This document shows positions 53,071 through 59,979 of a stretch of 64,000 nucleotides of DNA, one piece after another (within the stretch, counting starts at the first letter, position 1; every line of letters begins with the position of its first letter). The stretch covers positions 186,001 through 250,000 of the forward strand of contig NZ_AFOZ01000014.1 in the NCBI RefSeq assembly GCF_000217915.1, in the 5' to 3' direction. Under the pieces are notes generated by a model, which saw only the letters and a program-made list of their open reading frames with translations, did no database searches and was not told the DNA's origin. Made by a program: the position numbers and the translations under genes. The stretch comes from Shewanella sp. HN-41 (GTDB taxonomy: Bacteria; Pseudomonadota; Gammaproteobacteria; Enterobacterales; Shewanellaceae).

Positions 53071-54375
53071 TTATTTGCTAATCTTTTGTGGCTTATAACA
53101 ACTTTTTGCATTGGCTACGAAATTTTGAACATTACCAATCTTTTCAACCAACAAATCAACAAGATTTTCTGAATAATAATGCAACTCTGGATTATTATGA
53201 TGATATTCATTGTTTGCATTTTTAACTTTTATCTTATCAAGCATAGCTCTAAAACAGTGTTGATTTAGGGTTGGCTTTCCTGATTTTTTGCAACGAGCAA
53301 CTAAAAATTTATCTAGTGATTCAGGTGAATATTGCTCCGAAAGCCTTTGATTCACTCTTTTTATAGCAGTCCCCTCTAAGTAGGGATGTGATTTTTCTCT
53401 ATCTATAGGTTTATGTAATATCAGGGCTTTTCTTAGCCCAGACATACCATCTTCCGCTTTGGCTAGAGTAATTACTTGACCGTCTTCACCATCTTTTGCA
53501 AACACTAACTTTACATTTAAGGGAATCGCAAATTCTATATCATCTATGTCTTGCACTTCTTCCGTCAGACTTTCAGCCAAATTTAATATTTCATTTGCCA
53601 CATCACCATAGTTTGTTTGTAAAACTGACACAGGTGGATATTTAAAATCTCCAACTAAAGAAATCATTCCTGTGTGTGACGTACTTAAGAATGGCTGTTC
53701 AGAAAAATCTTCAAATTTTGATGAGTAATTAAGTACGCCAGATTGAAACAAGCGAGAAGCAATTCCCTGGATCTCAGGCATTAATAAATGTACAGCTTGA
53801 TCTCTAAAAAAAACTATTTTTTCTAGGTTAGATCTTACCTTATTACCCGTCTGGAAAATTATGTTTATGGAATCACGAAGTGAAATCGTCTCTTTCAAGC
53901 CATTTTTCTTTTCCTTTCTGAATATTGCTTGTTCACCATTCAGTTCAATAATCATAGCTTTTAGCAGTTGCTCCCAAGCTGTACAGAAACACATCACAAA
54001 ACCATCCATTCTGTTTTCAAGTGACGGCCTGTTGTATAACTCTAAAGCAAGTAGCATATTATCACGCGACTTTCTCAACAAAGCTTTTGCCAGCTTCGAT
54101 TTACAATTATGCCCTAGTCCACGTCTGTGTTTGCTTTGAGATAATTTTTTGGAAAATTCGATTAAAGATAGGCTTAATGAATTTGATGCGTCGTATACTC
54201 CAGAAGAAATTTCGCTCAGAAAATCCGACAATTGGCCTTTATTTAAGTAAGTTTTGAAAGTCGATTCTTTCCAACCAGTAGCATCAATAAGCTCGGCTTT
54301 TGTGAAAGTTTTTGAAGTCCTTTCTTTTTCTTGAAGGAACGTCAGAAAACGCTCATGGCTTTTGTTTATTTTCAC
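53071..54375 (-). CDS. DUF3644 / HEPN-like protein (cassette-encoded)
   Basis: 434 residues, cytosolic. Residues ~25-55 look like a winged helix (FTKAELIDATGWKESTFKTY). Residues ~98-215 match DUF3644 (MLLALELYNRPSLENRMDGF, TAWEQLLKAMIIELNGEQ, ISLRDSINIIF, NLEKIVFFRDQAVHLLMPE). R191-D-Q-A-V-H196 is the Rx4-6H motif of HEPN ribonucleases, so RNA cleavage is a plausible activity. The C-terminal ~200 residues are unrecognised. DUF3644 proteins occur in defence islands (general knowledge). The gene is more AT-rich than its neighbours and is bordered by repeat A, an attC-like site and repeat B, so it was acquired as a cassette. Confidence 0.78.
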   Translation of the reverse strand: MKINKSHERFLTFLQEKERTSKTFTKAELIDATGWKESTFKTYLNKGQLSDFLSEISSGVYDASNSLSLSLIEFSKKLSQSKHRRGLGHNCKSKLAKALLRKSRDNMLLALELYNRPSLENRMDGFVMCFCTAWEQLLKAMIIELNGEQAIFRKEKKNGLKETISLRDSINIIFQTGNKVRSNLEKIVFFRDQAVHLLMPEIQGIASRLFQSGVLNYSSKFEDFSEQPFLSTSHTGMISLVGDFKYPPVSVLQTNYGDVANEILNLAESLTEEVQDIDDIEFAIPLNVKLVFAKDGEDGQVITLAKAEDGMSGLRKALILHKPIDREKSHPYLEGTAIKRVNQRLSEQYSPESLDKFLVARCKKSGKPTLNQHCFRAMLDKIKVKNANNEYHHNNPELHYYSENLVDLLVEKIGNVQNFVANAKSCYKPQKISK

Positions 54376-54804: not shown

Positions 54805-54995
54805 GGTAAGAATTAGATTAAAAGCTCAACTATTCAGCTTGTTAGCAAGTAGTGAGTCGCTGATCAGTTTAATAAAACAGCAGTTAAAATCACTTTGGGT
54901 AATAATCTTTCTTTGCTGGCAAGCCACGCTTGACACCACAGCGCGAGTCTGTGATAACAAGTTCCTAACCTTTACCCTTCTTAATGTTTATTTTT

Positions 54996-56270
54996 ATGTC
55001 TAGCCATTTACATCAAAGTCGACTGGCGTTAACCAACGTCTTAGCAGAAGGGGGCTACACTGCCAGTGTTAAATTGGGCAGTCAGGCCACGAAAGTTAAT
55101 CTCATCATAGATACAGGTAGTTCCACCTTAGTGGTGCACCATAATCGCTATCAACCCCAGCACGATGAATATCTGCGGCCAACGACCTTAGCTCAAGAAG
55201 TCTGTTACGGTTTAGGCGGTTGGCTTGGCGCTGTGATTTATACCAAAGTGACGACGCCGTATCTGCATTTAGATAATACCCCTGTGGCCTTAGTACACCG
55301 TGAGGCTGAGCATACTTTTTTGAACGCCGATGGCATTTGGGGCTTGGCTTATCATAGGCTTAACCCAAGTTATGATATGGGCCGTTATTTGACAGCCCAC
55401 AGTGTCGAGCCACCAGTGACCTATCCTTGGCCCTTTCCTGATCCTCATCATCCGCTTTGCCATCAGGACTTAACCGATTTTAAGGCCTTGCTCTATACCG
55501 CTATCGAGCACGATGTGCCGACCTACTTTAGCTTAATGGAAGAGACGGGCCGCTGCGCCAATCGGTTTGCGTTCATCTCACGCCGCTCTAGCATTCATTA
55601 CGCCAGCGAGCATATCGACCAACATGCTTTACATGCAGATCCGCTCAATCAAGGCTGGCTGATATTAGGCGGTGGCGAAGAACACACTCAGTGTTATCAG
55701 GGAGAGTTTATCGATGTCAAAGTGGTGCATGACCGCTATTACAACGTGAATTTACTCAGCATCAATATAGTGGGCGCTGACCGCATTCATTTGCCCACTG
55801 TAGAAGAGGCGCACTTAAATCGTGGTTCCAGCAATGCCATTATCGATACTGGCGCATCTATGGTGTCACTGCCGCAAACGGCATTTAGCGCATTGATGAG
55901 TCAGCTAAAAGCGCAGGCGCCAAACGCTGCAGAACTGCTGGCGCCGTTCGAGCAAGGATTTAAGGCGCAGCAAACAGGCATTGACGCCAGCGCATTATGT
56001 TTAAGCGATTGGCCGGATATTGAGTTTCATTTTGAAGCTGAAAATGGTCACAGCGTCACTCTTAGCTGTCCGCCTACCAGCTATTGGCAAGTCAACACTC
56101 CAGCTTACGGTAAAGCGTGTTTTAAATTTATGGGGCAGTTACCGCAATGGCCTGCCCAAAGCATTTTAGGCTTGCCACTACTTAACCCCTATTTCGTGGT
56201 GTTTCGTCGCGATGAAGGCGAAGCCGGCATAGTGCGCTTTGCTGCCGTAGCCGATGAGGTGTCAGTGTAA
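54996..56270 (+). CDS. pepsin-like aspartic protease (shewasin-type)
   Basis: 424 residues, bilobal A1-family protease with both catalytic motifs: IIDTGSSTLVV (Asp39) and IIDTGASMVSLP (Asp284). No signal peptide, so it is cytosolic, as described for the shewasins of other Shewanella, which also lack a propeptide. The ATG 54984 twelve bases upstream is in frame; neither start has a strong ribosome-binding site. The GNAT gene begins 3 bp after its stop, and the borosin genes follow, making it a candidate processing protease for the borosin precursor (inference). Confidence 0.88.
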   Translation: MSSHLHQSRLALTNVLAEGGYTASVKLGSQATKVNLIIDTGSSTLVVHHNRYQPQHDEYLRPTTLAQEVCYGLGGWLGAVIYTKVTTPYLHLDNTPVALVHREAEHTFLNADGIWGLAYHRLNPSYDMGRYLTAHSVEPPVTYPWPFPDPHHPLCHQDLTDFKALLYTAIEHDVPTYFSLMEETGRCANRFAFISRRSSIHYASEHIDQHALHADPLNQGWLILGGGEEHTQCYQGEFIDVKVVHDRYYNVNLLSINIVGADRIHLPTVEEAHLNRGSSNAIIDTGASMVSLPQTAFSALMSQLKAQAPNAAELLAPFEQGFKAQQTGIDASALCLSDWPDIEFHFEAENGHSVTLSCPPTSYWQVNTPAYGKACFKFMGQLPQWPAQSILGLPLLNPYFVVFRRDEGEAGIVRFAAVADEVSV

Positions 56271-56272
56271 AT

Positions 56273-56782
56273 ATGATTTCGCTTCAAACCAGTAAAGTCT
56301 GGCTCACGCCTCTGTCAGATGCCGATGAAGACCTATTTGTTGAGCTGTATACCTCGGCGCGTTTGATGAGCAAGATTGCCGAGCCATTAACGGTTGAACG
56401 CGCCCAAAATGCGTTTCAAAAAACACTGGCTGCGACTTTGAATACCCCTCCTAAAATAATGAGTTGGGTCATTAGAGATAAGCTTGCTAATACTGCAATG
56501 GGCATAGTTGGCTTTTCGGCAATCACTTATCCTGAGCAAGCAGAGTTAGGTATTATTTTACGTCGAGAGGCTCACGGTAAAGGTGTAGTCGTTGAAGTTG
56601 GGGATGTGTTGTGTGATTACGCGCTAAAACAAGTGGGACTGCACCGCATTCGCGCTGAACATCACATCGAGAACCGGATCACCCAACGTATATTACGGCA
56701 AATGGGTTTTAACCCACCGCAGCCACATAAATGTAAGGCTGACACTTTAGAATGCTTTTTAACAGCGTCTAAATTCGCTTGA
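56273..56782 (+). CDS. GNAT family acetyltransferase in borosin neighbourhood
   Basis: 169 residues, RimJ/RimL-like: AELGIILRREAHGKGVVVEV near residues 91-110 and VGLHRIRAEHHIENRITQRI. It starts 2 bp after the protease gene stop, so the two are probably one transcript. It could acetylate a peptide or protein N-terminus; an action on the borosin product is speculative. Confidence 0.8.
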   Translation: MISLQTSKVWLTPLSDADEDLFVELYTSARLMSKIAEPLTVERAQNAFQKTLAATLNTPPKIMSWVIRDKLANTAMGIVGFSAITYPEQAELGIILRREAHGKGVVVEVGDVLCDYALKQVGLHRIRAEHHIENRITQRILRQMGFNPPQPHKCKADTLECFLTASKFA

Positions 56783-56846
56783 ACTGTTTCAAAACGAGAT
56801 AAAAAATGTTAATTTCGGCAAATAATAAAACTAACAAATATTTTAC

Positions 56847-57791
56847 ATGTCGGGTCGTTTAACTTGCGTTGGTGTCGGCATGACACTCGGCGCCCACCTT
56901 TGTCCTATCAGTCGCAGCCATATTGAGAACGCCGACGTGGTGTTTTCTGCCATGTCCGATGGCTTTGTCGAGCTGTGGTTAAACGAACTGCATCACGATG
57001 TTCGTAGTCTGCAAGACTATTACGCCGCCGATAAATCCCGCCATATTACTTACCAAGAAATGGTCGATGTAATGCTGGCGCAAGTGCGTTTAGGTAAAAA
57101 AGTGGTCGGGGCTTTTTACGGTCATCCCGGAGTATTTGCTAAGTCGCCCCACGAGGCGATAGCACAGGCAAAACGCGAAGGTTTTACCGCACAGATGATC
57201 CCCGGTATTTCGGCTGAAGACTGTTTGTACGCCGACTTAGGAATCGATCCCGGCAAGTTTGGCTGCCAACATTTTGAAACCACCCAGTTTATGTTGTACC
57301 AACGTCGCGTCGATGCCAGTGCCTATTTAGTGCTATGGCAAATTGGCTTGGCGGGCGATCTCATTATGGGCATTGTGGTGACGGGCCGCGAAGAGCGGCA
57401 ATTATTGCTTGAGCTACTGGCAAAAGAGTATCCGTTAACCCATGAGTGCTATTTATACGAAGCGCCAACTATGCCGCTGCAAACGCCGCGAATCGACAAA
57501 CTGGAATTACAGGCCTTACTGGATGCGCCAATCCATTTACATACTACCTTAGTGATACCGCCAGCGTTGGCACTGCAAGATAACCATGATATGCGCAGAC
57601 GTCTTAAGCAATTGGCTGCAAATAAAGCCAGTACATTAGGTAAGCCTAATGGTGAGCAGACATTTTATGCTAAACCTTACGCCGCAGTGAGCGCTGATGC
57701 GAACAATATTGGCGCGAATGCAATAGACTTACCCCCTCAGCGCAATACGGACAATGTATTGCCATTTATCAAAACGAAAAGGAAGCTTTAA
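56847..57791 (+). CDS. split borosin peptide backbone alpha-N-methyltransferase
   Basis: 314 residues, tetrapyrrole-methylase fold. CVGVGMTLGAHLCPISRSHI opens the SAM domain; KVVGAFYGHPGVFAKSPHEA, MIPGISAEDCLYADLGIDPG, HFETTQFMLYQRRVD and LVLWQIGLAGD are hallmarks of the borosin methyltransferases (OphMA, SonM), which iteratively methylate backbone amides of a precursor peptide. Its own precursor core is not fused. A ~55-residue low-complexity C-terminal extension (from ~260) exceeds the usual split enzyme. The stop overlaps the precursor start (TAATG). Similar to but not the same as S. oneidensis SonM. Confidence 0.9.
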   Translation: MSGRLTCVGVGMTLGAHLCPISRSHIENADVVFSAMSDGFVELWLNELHHDVRSLQDYYAADKSRHITYQEMVDVMLAQVRLGKKVVGAFYGHPGVFAKSPHEAIAQAKREGFTAQMIPGISAEDCLYADLGIDPGKFGCQHFETTQFMLYQRRVDASAYLVLWQIGLAGDLIMGIVVTGREERQLLLELLAKEYPLTHECYLYEAPTMPLQTPRIDKLELQALLDAPIHLHTTLVIPPALALQDNHDMRRRLKQLAANKASTLGKPNGEQTFYAKPYAAVSADANNIGANAIDLPPQRNTDNVLPFIKTKRKL

Positions 57792-58057
57792 TGAACTCAG
57801 CAATTCAATTTCTAGCCCGCTTAGGCAGTGATGCCGCTCTACAAGACACCACAACGTTAGCAACGGCATTAGCCGAAGCCAATTTATCGCCAGAGGCAAT
57901 GACACTTATTCAAGCTAGTGACGTTGAAGGCCTGAAATGCCTGATGCCAGTACGCCATGACATCGTTTGTCTTATGGTGCCTGCTGAAGATGAGCAAGAA
58001 AGCCAAGAATCGGAAGAAAACGATACCGATGTTACCCAACAGGTCGTAAATGGCTAA
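57791..58057 (+). CDS. borosin precursor peptide
   Basis: 88 residues. Residues ~1-52 form a helical borosin-binding domain (IQFLARLGSDAALQ, LATALAEANLSPEAMTLIQA) comparable to that of SonA. Then comes PVRHDIVCLMVPAEDE, a short hydrophobic candidate core (I58-V63), and an acidic Glu/Gln/Asp-rich tail. AAGGAAG precedes the ATG, which overlaps the methyltransferase stop. The core differs from the core I recall for SonA (YLVISHGNGD), so a different product is expected. Methylated positions cannot be read from sequence. Confidence 0.85.
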   Translation: MNSAIQFLARLGSDAALQDTTTLATALAEANLSPEAMTLIQASDVEGLKCLMPVRHDIVCLMVPAEDEQESQESEENDTDVTQQVVNG

Positions 58058-59819
58058 ATTTATAGCCGTTATCATAGCCAGCATTATGCTGGCTATGCCG
58101 TTTGGGGTATTTGCTAGCACTTCAACAGAATCAGCCGTCGATGCTGAGCAAAGCTATTATCAGATCCTTAGCGAAGCGGATGGTCTACGCTCGAGCGATC
58201 CCCAAAGATTTAGCCAGTTATTAACTGAGGTCCGTGAACAGCAAGCCAAGCTGAATCAGCAAGAGCTTGATTACTTAGCTTATTTAAGTGCATATGAGTT
58301 GTCTTTTTCGGGAAAATTCACCGAGGCAGTAGCTGCGTACCAAGCACTCATTAACTCACATGCCGATCCCGAGCTAACCTTGAGGGCTCGGCTGTCTGTG
58401 GTCAATATTTATGCCTTTAGCCAAAACTGGAATGGTGGGCTCACGCAATTAGCGCAGATCCTACCTGAGCTGCCAAGGGTGAGTGACCCACAGCTTAAAA
58501 CCAATGGCTGGGCAATTGCGGCTGTTTTTTATAACGGCCTAGGTCAATATCCCTTAGGGCTGGAATACAGCCAGCAATTAAAAAATACCGCTACCGATCC
58601 CCGTAGCCAATGTATGGCGGTTCAACTCGAAGTCGAATCTAAATTTAGGTTACATAGCATAGCTGCAAGCAGCCCCGATTTTGACGAAGCAATTGCCGTG
58701 TGTGAGGGGAATAATGAACTGGTGATGGCCAGCATCATCAGGAGTAATCGCGCCGAGCAGTATTTAAGCGAGGGGAATAGTGAGAAAGCGCTATCGGTAC
58801 TCGAGTCCAATTTAGCGGCTGTCGAAAGCTCTGGTTATGCACCTATTAAAGCGTCTTATTATTCATTATTGGCCGATGCGTATTTGAATCAAGGACAACT
58901 AGATGCAGCTAAATCCTATGCCGAAATTGTCAGCTCAAATAAAGTCATTTCAACAAATAATATAACGAATGCCAGAGCTAATAGGGTTTTATACGAAATC
59001 TATCGTCAGCAAGGCGATACCGCCGCCGCACTCGAAGCCTATATTCGTTTTGCTGAAGCCGATAAAGCCTATTTAGATGAAGTGAAAACCAAAAACTTGG
59101 CGTTCCAATTGGCCGAGCATCAAAGTATTGAGCAGCAAAATCGTATCAGCTTGCTGGATGAGCAGAATAAATTGCTCACAGTGCAGCAACAGCTAGATCA
59201 GGCCGAAACCTTTAATAATCGACTGCTGATCGCGGTATTGTTCAGCGTCATTTTAGGCTTAGTGACTTGGGGTTATCATTCGTTTAAAAACCAAAAACGG
59301 CTTAAGCAATTGGCCGAATATGACAGTTTGACTGGGCTATTTAGTCGCGGCCATTTTACCCAAGTGTCACGTAGCGCGATGAAACATACCGAAACCTTAG
59401 GGGCGCCTGTCAGTTGTATCTTGTTCGACTTAGATCGCTTTAAACGAATCAATGACATTATGGGGCATAAAACCGGCGATTGGGCGTTAAAACTTGCCGC
59501 AACCGTTTGCCAAGAGCAAGTGCGAGATTATGACATTGTTGGCCGTATCGGTGGTGAAGAATTTTGCGTGTTATTGCCTGAGTGCGTAGCGCAAGATGCT
59601 GAGCTGGTGGCGCAAAGTGTGCGCGAAGCGTTGGCAAACAGGGATACCTCTGAAAGCGGCCACAGCTTTAAGCTCACCGCCAGCTTTGGTGTCAGCGATA
59701 CTTTAAGCTCAGGCTACTGTTTAGAGCAATTGGCCGCCAATGCTGACAAAGCCATGTATCGCGCCAAAAACACGGGCCGCAATCAGGTTTGCGTGTTTGA
59801 TAGCGAGCTTGATAAGTAA
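58050..59819 (+). CDS. TPR-sensor diguanylate cyclase coupled to the borosin genes
   Basis: 589 residues. Signal peptide (~1-24), a periplasmic TPR-like helical region (~30-370) with repeats such as SGKFTEAVAAYQALINSHAD and NQGQLDAAKSYAEIV, a coiled coil (~350-390), a membrane helix (LLIAVLFSVILGLVTWGYH, ~391-409) and a GGDEF domain with RIGGEEFCVLLPE. I-site RDYD lies five residues before GGEEF. The ATG lies inside the precursor gene (8-bp overlap), so its translation is coupled to the RiPP genes. Product feedback by c-di-GMP is expected. Confidence 0.92.
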   Translation: MAKFIAVIIASIMLAMPFGVFASTSTESAVDAEQSYYQILSEADGLRSSDPQRFSQLLTEVREQQAKLNQQELDYLAYLSAYELSFSGKFTEAVAAYQALINSHADPELTLRARLSVVNIYAFSQNWNGGLTQLAQILPELPRVSDPQLKTNGWAIAAVFYNGLGQYPLGLEYSQQLKNTATDPRSQCMAVQLEVESKFRLHSIAASSPDFDEAIAVCEGNNELVMASIIRSNRAEQYLSEGNSEKALSVLESNLAAVESSGYAPIKASYYSLLADAYLNQGQLDAAKSYAEIVSSNKVISTNNITNARANRVLYEIYRQQGDTAAALEAYIRFAEADKAYLDEVKTKNLAFQLAEHQSIEQQNRISLLDEQNKLLTVQQQLDQAETFNNRLLIAVLFSVILGLVTWGYHSFKNQKRLKQLAEYDSLTGLFSRGHFTQVSRSAMKHTETLGAPVSCILFDLDRFKRINDIMGHKTGDWALKLAATVCQEQVRDYDIVGRIGGEEFCVLLPECVAQDAELVAQSVREALANRDTSESGHSFKLTASFGVSDTLSSGYCLEQLAANADKAMYRAKNTGRNQVCVFDSELDK

Positions 59820-59891
59820 TCCCTGCTCGCGCGCATCAGGTGTAATGTTTATTATTTGTTACAAGTATTTGATAAAAACAATAAACATTGA

Positions 59892-59917
59892 AAAGAGCGC
59901 TTATGGCGCTCTTTTTT
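59892..59917 (+). terminator. terminator of the borosin-GGDEF operon
   Basis: AGAGCGC-TTATG-GCGCTCT followed by TTTTT, ~75 bp after the cyclase stop. Confidence 0.88.
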
Positions 59918-59979
59918 ATCGCCATTTTTTACGAAGGTTACATACCAGACGTTTCGCTAACAGCGGTTAAAGAGTCAAT

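Follow-up and report, generated by a model that had tools for sequence, protein, structure and literature searches.

Here, we show by computation that a borosin cluster in Shewanella sp. HN-41 holds genes for a pepsin homologue, a GNAT N-acetyltransferase and a tetratricopeptide repeat (TPR) sensor that are genetically tied to the borosin methyltransferase and its precursor peptide. The cluster lies in a stretch of 64,000 nucleotides (contig NZ_AFOZ01000014.1, positions 186,001 to 250,000; hereafter the window) of a genome assembled in 47 contigs with a total of 4.41 Mb, and consists of the genes for the pepsin homologue (PEP), the GNAT, the methyltransferase (BMT), the precursor (PRE) and a TPR-GGDEF protein with the features of a diguanylate cyclase (DGC) (Table 1). 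We consider it about an even chance (0.5) that the cluster both makes and senses one small N-methylated peptide, that is, that a maturation unit for a ribosomally synthesized and post-translationally modified peptide (RiPP) is joined here to a TPR receptor.

The initial annotation had described the locus as a split borosin cluster, and this description is borne out, since BMT is a member of the SonM family with the key residues and the separate PRE is modelled with the leader fold of SonA. In a PDB sequence search, the solved structure closest to BMT is SonM (7ltc, E 4e-71), followed by the fungal OphA (E 6e-46). Moreover, BMT retains the residues aligned to the catalytic and lock residues Y58, R67, Y71, Y93, F99 and W166 of SonM, whose roles are taken from the text of PMC8429565. 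The AlphaFold model of PRE (35 sequences, mean predicted local distance difference test score (pLDDT) 71) consists of five helices and a loose tail, and model and sequence together suggest a five-helix leader at about residues 3-51, the core DIVCLMVPAED at about 57-67 and an acidic tail. There is no Pfam match for PRE, and a PDB sequence search with it returned designed pentatricopeptide repeat proteins only, which were taken as a composition match. Among its 28 fold matches in the PDB, ranks 1-19 are SonM-SonA complexes, the next eight are OphA or dbOphMA and the last is LigAB. By family membership, BMT and PRE are the parts of a type IV split borosin. Most of the related precursors share the motif C-phi-phi-phi-P-A-E-D/E followed by an acidic tail; its P and A are both within the six best kept columns of 35 aligned precursors, and a Cys stands four residues before the Pro position in 55 of the 66 precursors of PEP-bearing loci. 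A by-eye alignment to SonA would place the methylation sites L63 and I65 at this Cys and at the second residue after it.

Within the genus Shewanella, a sample of 129 genomes contained BMT in 112 and PEP in 40. BMTs with at least 60 percent identity to the window BMT, here called type 2, were found in 42 genomes, at 41 loci besides the window (L066-L106). Thirty-nine of the 40 PEP genes lie within this cluster, and the 40th (G087, the closest relative of the source genome with a pepsin, in which no type-2 BMT was seen) is at the end of a contig that stops 73 bases beyond GNAT; all PEP matches and all PF00026 matches (36 genomes) in the sample fall at this locus. The order PEP-GNAT-BMT-PRE is present in 37 of the 41 other type-2 loci, namely 36 with an intact PEP and L089, and the TPR-GGDEF gene comes next in 36 of these 37, the exception being L083, where the contig ends first. 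PEP itself is intact at 36 of the 41 loci, split into two open reading frames (ORFs) at one (L089), reduced to a remnant of 104 aa at one (L105) and absent from three (L066, L068 and L106). GNAT tracks PEP at these loci, being present with PEP or its remnant and absent from the same three, and it adjoins BMT at 39 of the 42 type-2 loci of the genus, window included. PRE is followed by the TPR-GGDEF gene at all 41 loci except L083 (contig end) and L105, and in L066 this gene is broken into two ORFs. The cluster at L105 (G026) appears to be decaying, with the 104-aa pepsin, no cyclase and two precursors that have Gly for the core Cys. At L089 (5151-6456, G005), the two pepsin ORFs overlap, and GNAT, BMT, PRE and DGC are present.

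The PEP-less type-2 loci of Shewanella represent two lineages, in which GNAT is absent as well as PEP. In a BMT tree built by a quick method, the BMTs of the window type stand on one side of a branch and SonM on the other (approximate likelihood ratio support, SH-aLRT, 100), and the type-2 rows without PEP occupy two positions, L066/L068/L106 and L108; L105 was entered in this scoring as PEP-bearing though its PEP is a remnant. L108 is an extra copy in G024 (56 percent identity), and it is without PEP and without GNAT. The source genome has a second cluster on contig C32 (L109), which is of the SonM type and has a close SonA homologue. All 16 SonM-type loci that were read (L109-L120, L122-L125) contain a BMT, an ORF resembling SonA and a gene for a GGDEF protein that matches the TPR profile in its front part.

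Outside Shewanella, we used two samples. A scan of named genomes used PEP as the query and its loci are biased towards PEP; it gave 49 loci with PEP, 22 in Shewanella and 27 in others. PEP, GNAT, BMT and a TPR-GGDEF gene occur together in 19 of these 27, and a precursor is present in all 19 (17 by profile, two as a small ORF with a similar core). The hosts belong to Thalassotalea, Colwellia, Neiella, Thalassomonas, Alteromonas, Aestuariibacter, Aliiglaciecola, Salinimonas and further Alteromonadaceae. The five-gene set is present in several marine bacterial groups. Content is kept while order is shuffled, with GNAT-PEP-BMT in Alteromonas and PEP-BMT-GNAT in Colwellia (L143) and Salinimonas (L164), and the PRE-DGC pair is duplicated in tandem in the same Colwellia locus. 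Eight of the 27 loci are without a nearby BMT; the genomes of L142, L149 (Marinicella) and L151 have BMT elsewhere, that of L161 has a weak BMT match in an 823-aa frame, and L146 appears to be from genome G392, which has BMT. The second sample, 394 genomes of the order, is free of the query bias and holds PEP in 39 and BMT in 95. BMT is present in 39 of 39 genomes with PEP vs 56 of 355 without it (Fisher 6e-28, uncorrected for kinship), and at the genus level each of the 11 PEP genera is also one of the 24 with BMT, out of 114 genera in all (P 4e-9). Outside Shewanella, the order sample has 29 PEP genomes; PEP adjoins BMT in 14 of them (13 loci read and G492 by coordinates) and lies apart from it in 15, one of which (G401) has PEP at a contig start. 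GNAT stands beside BMT at 35 of the loci of this sample, and PEP, adjacent or not, goes with GNAT-type clusters only: it is found in 28 of 35 such genomes vs 0 of 32 others (P 1e-12, uncorrected for kinship and with G492 left out of the count).

The initial annotation had proposed the pepsin as a candidate for releasing the leader or core and the GNAT as one for N-terminal capping, and had set beforehand, as one of two points on which the protease idea could fail, the neighbourhood of protease and methyltransferase genes in other genomes. This neighbourhood holds in Shewanella and in eight other named genera; the tie of pepsin and GNAT to the borosin cluster is kept through shuffled order, and PEP and BMT still co-occur where they are unlinked. 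The protease idea stands stronger than when it was first put forward. Several side observations were made among these loci. The Neiella-type precursors (L131, L172, L284, L285) apparently have two hydrophobic-acidic core segments; BMT domains lie within long ORFs, possibly fused borosins, in L353 (600-2516, 638 aa) and L356 (5226-7694, 822 aa); and a tandem BMT pair is located upstream of a TPR histidine kinase in L351 (6137-7778). Family A1 pepsin homologues occur in metagenome-assembled genomes labelled Chitinophagaceae, Synechococcus and Opitutaceae (L156, L161 and L173, respectively), where binning errors are possible; the source of L356 is a metagenome-assembled genome labelled Synechococcus, with the pepsin homologue L161 in the same genome.

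The window PEP has the features of a family A1 pepsin, that is, a match to Pfam Asp (1e-23), two catalytic motifs, both D-T-G, and no hydrophobic segment in a hydropathy scan. Two D-T/S-G motifs are present in all 38 full-length PEPs listed, window included; a strict count of the catalytic Asp motif (60 of 86) used too narrow a pattern and was replaced by the listed motif positions. The coordinates given for four Shewanella pepsins in Table 1 of PMC2761423 coincide with PEP inside five-gene clusters: shewasin A of S. amazonensis (genome G008, locus L072), shewasin D of S. denitrificans (G024, L069) and the pepsins of S. loihica (G052, L096) and S. sediminis (G082, L075), the organism names of these genomes being taken from that table and the matching coordinates. 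Judged by genome coordinates, the window PEP is an orthologue of shewasins A and D. According to the main text of PMC4814920, shewasin D is an active, mainly cytosolic enzyme with a P1 preference for Leu, aromatic residues and Asp, shewasins favour large hydrophobic P1 residues, and the in vivo role was left open. In a word search of the main texts of PMC4814920 and PMC2761423, terms for gene context (operon, neighbour, methyltransferase, acetyltransferase and similar) were absent, except for "genomic" once in a reference list.

Outside Shewanella, the constant feature is a TPR protein encoded near BMT. Among 106 BMT loci (four of them, L354-L357, from beyond the order sample), a partner on the same strand within 4.2 kb that matched the whole-cyclase profile at E <=0.01 was called at 99; this profile could catch GGDEF alone, and a TPR-specific re-check left 97. 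The nine loci without a counted TPR partner include L263, L324, L350 and L355, which are near contig ends, L353 and L356, whose BMT is inside the long ORFs, L349, whose partner has a GGDEF domain without TPR evidence, L264, where an unrelated-looking GGDEF neighbour (L264:10616) was called and a TPR-GGDEF gene is on the opposite strand, and L335, where none was found. The 126 partner proteins comprise 69 with GGDEF, 23 with a histidine kinase and 34 with no recognised output. A TPR-only profile matches 112 of them (67 GGDEF, 13 kinase and 32 without output), and Pfam adds TPR in 12 more, 10 of which are kinases. In Pfam, 59 divergent partners gave TPR_12 in 56, HATPase_c in 23 and HisKA in 22, and 47 close cyclases gave GGDEF in 47 and TPR_12 in 26. 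When the hydropathy of 131 partner ORFs was scanned by a simple method, an N-terminal hydrophobic segment was found in 68/74 GGDEF, 23/23 kinase and 34/34 output-free proteins, and a later one in 72/74, 23/23 and 5/34, respectively; because of these segments, the TPR part is predicted to face the periplasm. In L302, L306 and L311, from genomes of about 2.5 Mb, BMT is accompanied by an array of secreted proteins with TPR only, three or four in number.

GGDEF matches in the source genome number 59, roughly one every 75 kb, and a GGDEF gene recurring at this place is therefore not expected by chance. The initial annotation had taken the cyclase overlap to suggest that the peptide and cyclic di-GMP (c-di-GMP) signalling are linked. 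What stands of this is the signalling-type partner, which is constant; what does not is a special link to c-di-GMP, which we reject, as the output may be GGDEF, a kinase or absent. The constant partner of BMT is an exported TPR sensor and not a cyclase as such, and the c-di-GMP idea should be recast as that of a TPR receptor with interchangeable outputs.

The window DGC has an N-terminal hydrophobic segment, a TPR solenoid at about 36-320, a hydrophobic segment near 392 and a GGDEF domain (Pfam GGDEF 3e-38, with TPR families at weaker scores), which carries the GGEEF motif of a predicted cyclase and an RxxD I-site; among the DGCs of type-2 loci, GG[DE][DE]F is kept in 64 of 66 and the I-site in 57 of 66. 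In its model (47 sequences, mean pLDDT 91.5), the 50 Foldseek matches listed for the whole cyclase are all GGDEF-type proteins. For the TPR part, chains from the Foldseek top 1000 were re-aligned, and it matched the phage Phi3T Rap with its pheromone (8rsv, Z 23.8, 312 residues), RapF bound to its inhibitory peptide (4i9c, Z 23.3) and NprR-NprX (4gpk, Z 23.2), in a tie with peptide complexes of LGN. These matches support a peptide-binding type of solenoid in the model, rather than kinship. We also compared the divergence of the proteins over 52 five-gene loci by a Mantel-type test with 500 permutations, in which the BMT distance was held constant and the tree was not in the model. PRE distance tracks that of the TPR part (partial r 0.33, 0/500 permutations as high) and, to a smaller degree, those of PEP (0.20, 2/500), GNAT (0.15, 28/500) and the GGDEF part of DGC (0.12, 35/500); PEP follows GNAT (0.23, 2/500), and the partial r between TPR and GGDEF parts is -0.02. 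As the permutations leave out the tree, the covariation of PRE with the TPR part should be taken as a hint.

By analogy with SonM-SonA, the helical leader of PRE would dock on BMT, and the hydrophobic core D-I-V-C-L-M-V-P-A-E-D would be methylated on backbone nitrogens. The cytosolic pepsin homologue may then cut the precursor within this core or close to it, and the GNAT may acetylate the N-terminus newly made. The short, capped, N-methylated peptide would leave the cytoplasm either by diffusing out or with the help of an exporter whose gene lies elsewhere, there being none among the five conserved genes (other neighbours were not annotated for transporters), and would bind the periplasmic TPR solenoid of the protein encoded directly after PRE. 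Binding would set the output, which would be c-di-GMP synthesis here; in other lineages, it would be a histidine kinase, or the output is not known. Such a scheme would work like the Gram-positive Rap and NprR pheromone systems, but with a receptor that faces the periplasm.

A number of points weigh against this reading. Methylation at this locus, the cut, the cap, export and sensing are all steps that we infer. The SonM-type loci show neither PEP nor GNAT (16/16), and the genomes of L156, L171 and L173 carry PEP homologues with no BMT detected. No PEP was detected in seven GNAT-type genomes (G140, G178, G184, G364, G418, G434 and G442), which keep GNAT and BMT and, as far as their contigs extend, PRE and the TPR-GGDEF gene. 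The pepsin is thus not a universal part of GNAT-type clusters, and either a different protease can do the work or there is no need for one. Most cores in the same seven genomes still hold F, L or M. We had considered F, L, M, W or Y in the core, found in 65 of 66 precursors of PEP-bearing loci (other genera included) vs 0 of 5 at PEP-less Shewanella type-2 loci, as a pepsin site, and this contrast was dropped as general evidence because the PEP-less Shewanella lineages number only two and PEP-less GNAT-bearing genera mostly keep these residues. In the Mantel-type test, PEP distance does not track that of the TPR part (partial r -0.14, 480/500), and GNAT distance does so weakly (0.10, 85/500). 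The fold matches of PRE have weak E-values, the best being 0.12, though 27 of 28 are borosin entries. Peptide complexes of LGN tie with Rap and NprR as matches of the TPR part (4wnd, Z 23.3), TPR folds being common, and 10 of the 23 kinase partners miss the TPR profile of the cyclases, though Pfam sees TPR in them. Finally, the optimum of shewasins in vitro is at about pH 3.5-4.5 in the main text of PMC4814920, which is odd for a cytosolic maturase.

Some of these points would suit a different role for the pepsin, as a quality-control or turnover protease that destroys unmodified or surplus precursor or BMT-bound leader instead of releasing the product, with a second, general protease making the final cut. 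The GNAT-type clusters kept without PEP, the PEP genes away from BMT in 15 of 29 genomes, the SonM-type loci that do without PEP and the acidic optimum (PMC4814920), which suggests conditional activity, fit such a role; the nesting of PEP in GNAT-type clusters (28/35 vs 0/32) and the fact that the Shewanella type-2 loci without PEP lack GNAT too fit cutting followed by capping better, and we regard a turnover pepsin as a credible but unlikely explanation. Doubt of another kind concerns the TPR protein, which might not be a receptor and might instead carry, scaffold or stabilise the peptide (or an exporter) in the periplasm, the GGDEF output of the window protein then sensing load or stress in place of a peptide signal. 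This is consistent with the 34 of 126 partners without a recognised output, 29 of which have the N-terminal hydrophobic segment alone, and with the arrays of up to four TPR proteins (L311). However, the GGDEF and kinase partners, with their N-terminal and later transmembrane segments, have the usual layout of membrane sensors, and a carrier role is rather unlikely.

An antibiotic or toxin as the product seems improbable to us. The GNAT would then serve in self-immunity or tailoring, as GNATs can confer immunity, and the TPR cyclase or kinase would be an ordinary cluster regulator or envelope-stress sensor. The core motif is kept between genera, unlike that of most antimicrobials, which are of the diversifying kind, and the conserved five genes include no exporter (other neighbours not being annotated). 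A product of this kind has a precedent in omphalotin, a fungal borosin described as nematocidal in PMC11285071. That the five genes are chance neighbours, or are co-transcribed without a common function, is very improbable: the 8-bp overlap and 2-bp gap would not by themselves show function, but the gene set recurs, its order shuffled, across eight further named genera, and its parts co-occur where they are unlinked. A cluster that makes and senses its own peptide is the reading that we prefer.

At the level of the window, all five ORFs were found head to tail on the forward strand where the initial annotation had put them, and the coordinates agree with its 2-bp gap between PEP and GNAT (56270/56273), its TAATG overlap of BMT stop and PRE start, with one base common to both, and its 8-bp overlap of PRE and DGC (58050/58057). 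GNAT and BMT are spaced by 64 bp, which had gone unmentioned. The Pfam E-values of the other enzymes are 2e-22 for GNAT (Acetyltransf_3) and 1e-23 for BMT (TP_methylase). A palindrome and T run downstream of the cyclase could mark the end of the transcript; the terminator scan lists it on the reverse strand only, and promoter and terminator scans showed no enrichment over shuffled sequence. Upstream of the cluster, a 434-aa ORF (53071-54375, reverse strand) had no matches in 60 other loci by single-sequence search.

Table 1. Features of the five-gene borosin locus (positions in the window)
Feature	Coordinates	Strand	Details
PEP, family A1 pepsin homologue (shewasin family)	54984-56270	+	428 aa, or 424 aa from ATG 54996
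GNAT N-acetyltransferase	56273-56782	+	169 aa, Acetyltransf_3
BMT, borosin alpha-N-methyltransferase, SonM homologue	56847-57791	+	TP_methylase
PRE, borosin precursor	57791-58057	+	88 aa; modelled leader, core and acidic tail
DGC, TPR-GGDEF protein	58050-59819	+	589 aa
Candidate intrinsic terminator of the cluster	59891-59921	+	palindrome, then T run; read in the sequence

The RRNPP systems of Gram-positive bacteria, such as Rap and NprR, rely on a cytosolic receptor of an imported peptide. The modelled sensor of DGC resembles these receptors in a TPR solenoid that matches over about 300 residues, though LGN complexes match it equally well, and in the short peptide encoded beside the presumed receptor. 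It differs in that the hydrophobic segments at the N-terminus and before GGDEF predict, by hydropathy and model, a periplasmic TPR part, in its GGDEF or kinase output, in a peptide that would be a RiPP without its own signal peptide and in its Gram-negative hosts.

With the type IV split borosin SonM-SonA of S. oneidensis MR-1, as presented in the text of PMC8429565, the locus shares a discrete methyltransferase and precursor and, in the model of PRE, the five-helix binding domain, and with the SonM-type loci it shares the TPR-GGDEF gene after the SonA-like ORF (16/16). In contrast, the window BMT belongs to a separate clade, pepsin and GNAT are added here, and the precursors mostly have the C-phi-phi-phi-P-A-E-D/E core and acidic tail, unlike SonA, which ends YLVISHGNGD. 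The main text of PMC8429565 makes no mention of GGDEF, TPR, tetratricopeptide, SO1480, signaling or c-di-GMP. Shewasins A and D are of the same gene family and cluster as the window PEP, and the gene-context terms searched are absent from the main texts that describe them (PMC4814920, PMC2761423). A protease encoded in a RiPP cluster is also a feature of the RiPP leader proteases, for which the review PMC10885120 has headings on cysteine, serine and metalloproteases as well as on two-step processing and "additional protease families"; its text makes no mention of aspartic, aspartyl, pepsin or Shewanella, and borosin appears once, in its references. Nothing in the texts searched joins the borosin, pepsin, GNAT and TPR parts, and an earlier description of this neighbourhood may exist.

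A constant TPR sensor with swapped outputs leads to the prediction that the peptide is its ligand. If this is true, backbone N-methylated RiPPs would be signals that act through c-di-GMP or kinases, and no such class was met in the literature searched. Beyond this, we offer tentatively a Gram-negative counterpart of Rap and NprR, in which pepsin-trimmed, N-capped, N-methylated borosins would serve as membrane-permeable pheromones for TPR receptors in the periplasm whose outputs can be exchanged (c-di-GMP, histidine kinase or soluble binding protein) in Shewanella, Colwellia, Alteromonas and their kin. For the puzzling bacterial pepsins, the cluster suggests a likely role, and it hints at a possible signalling system.

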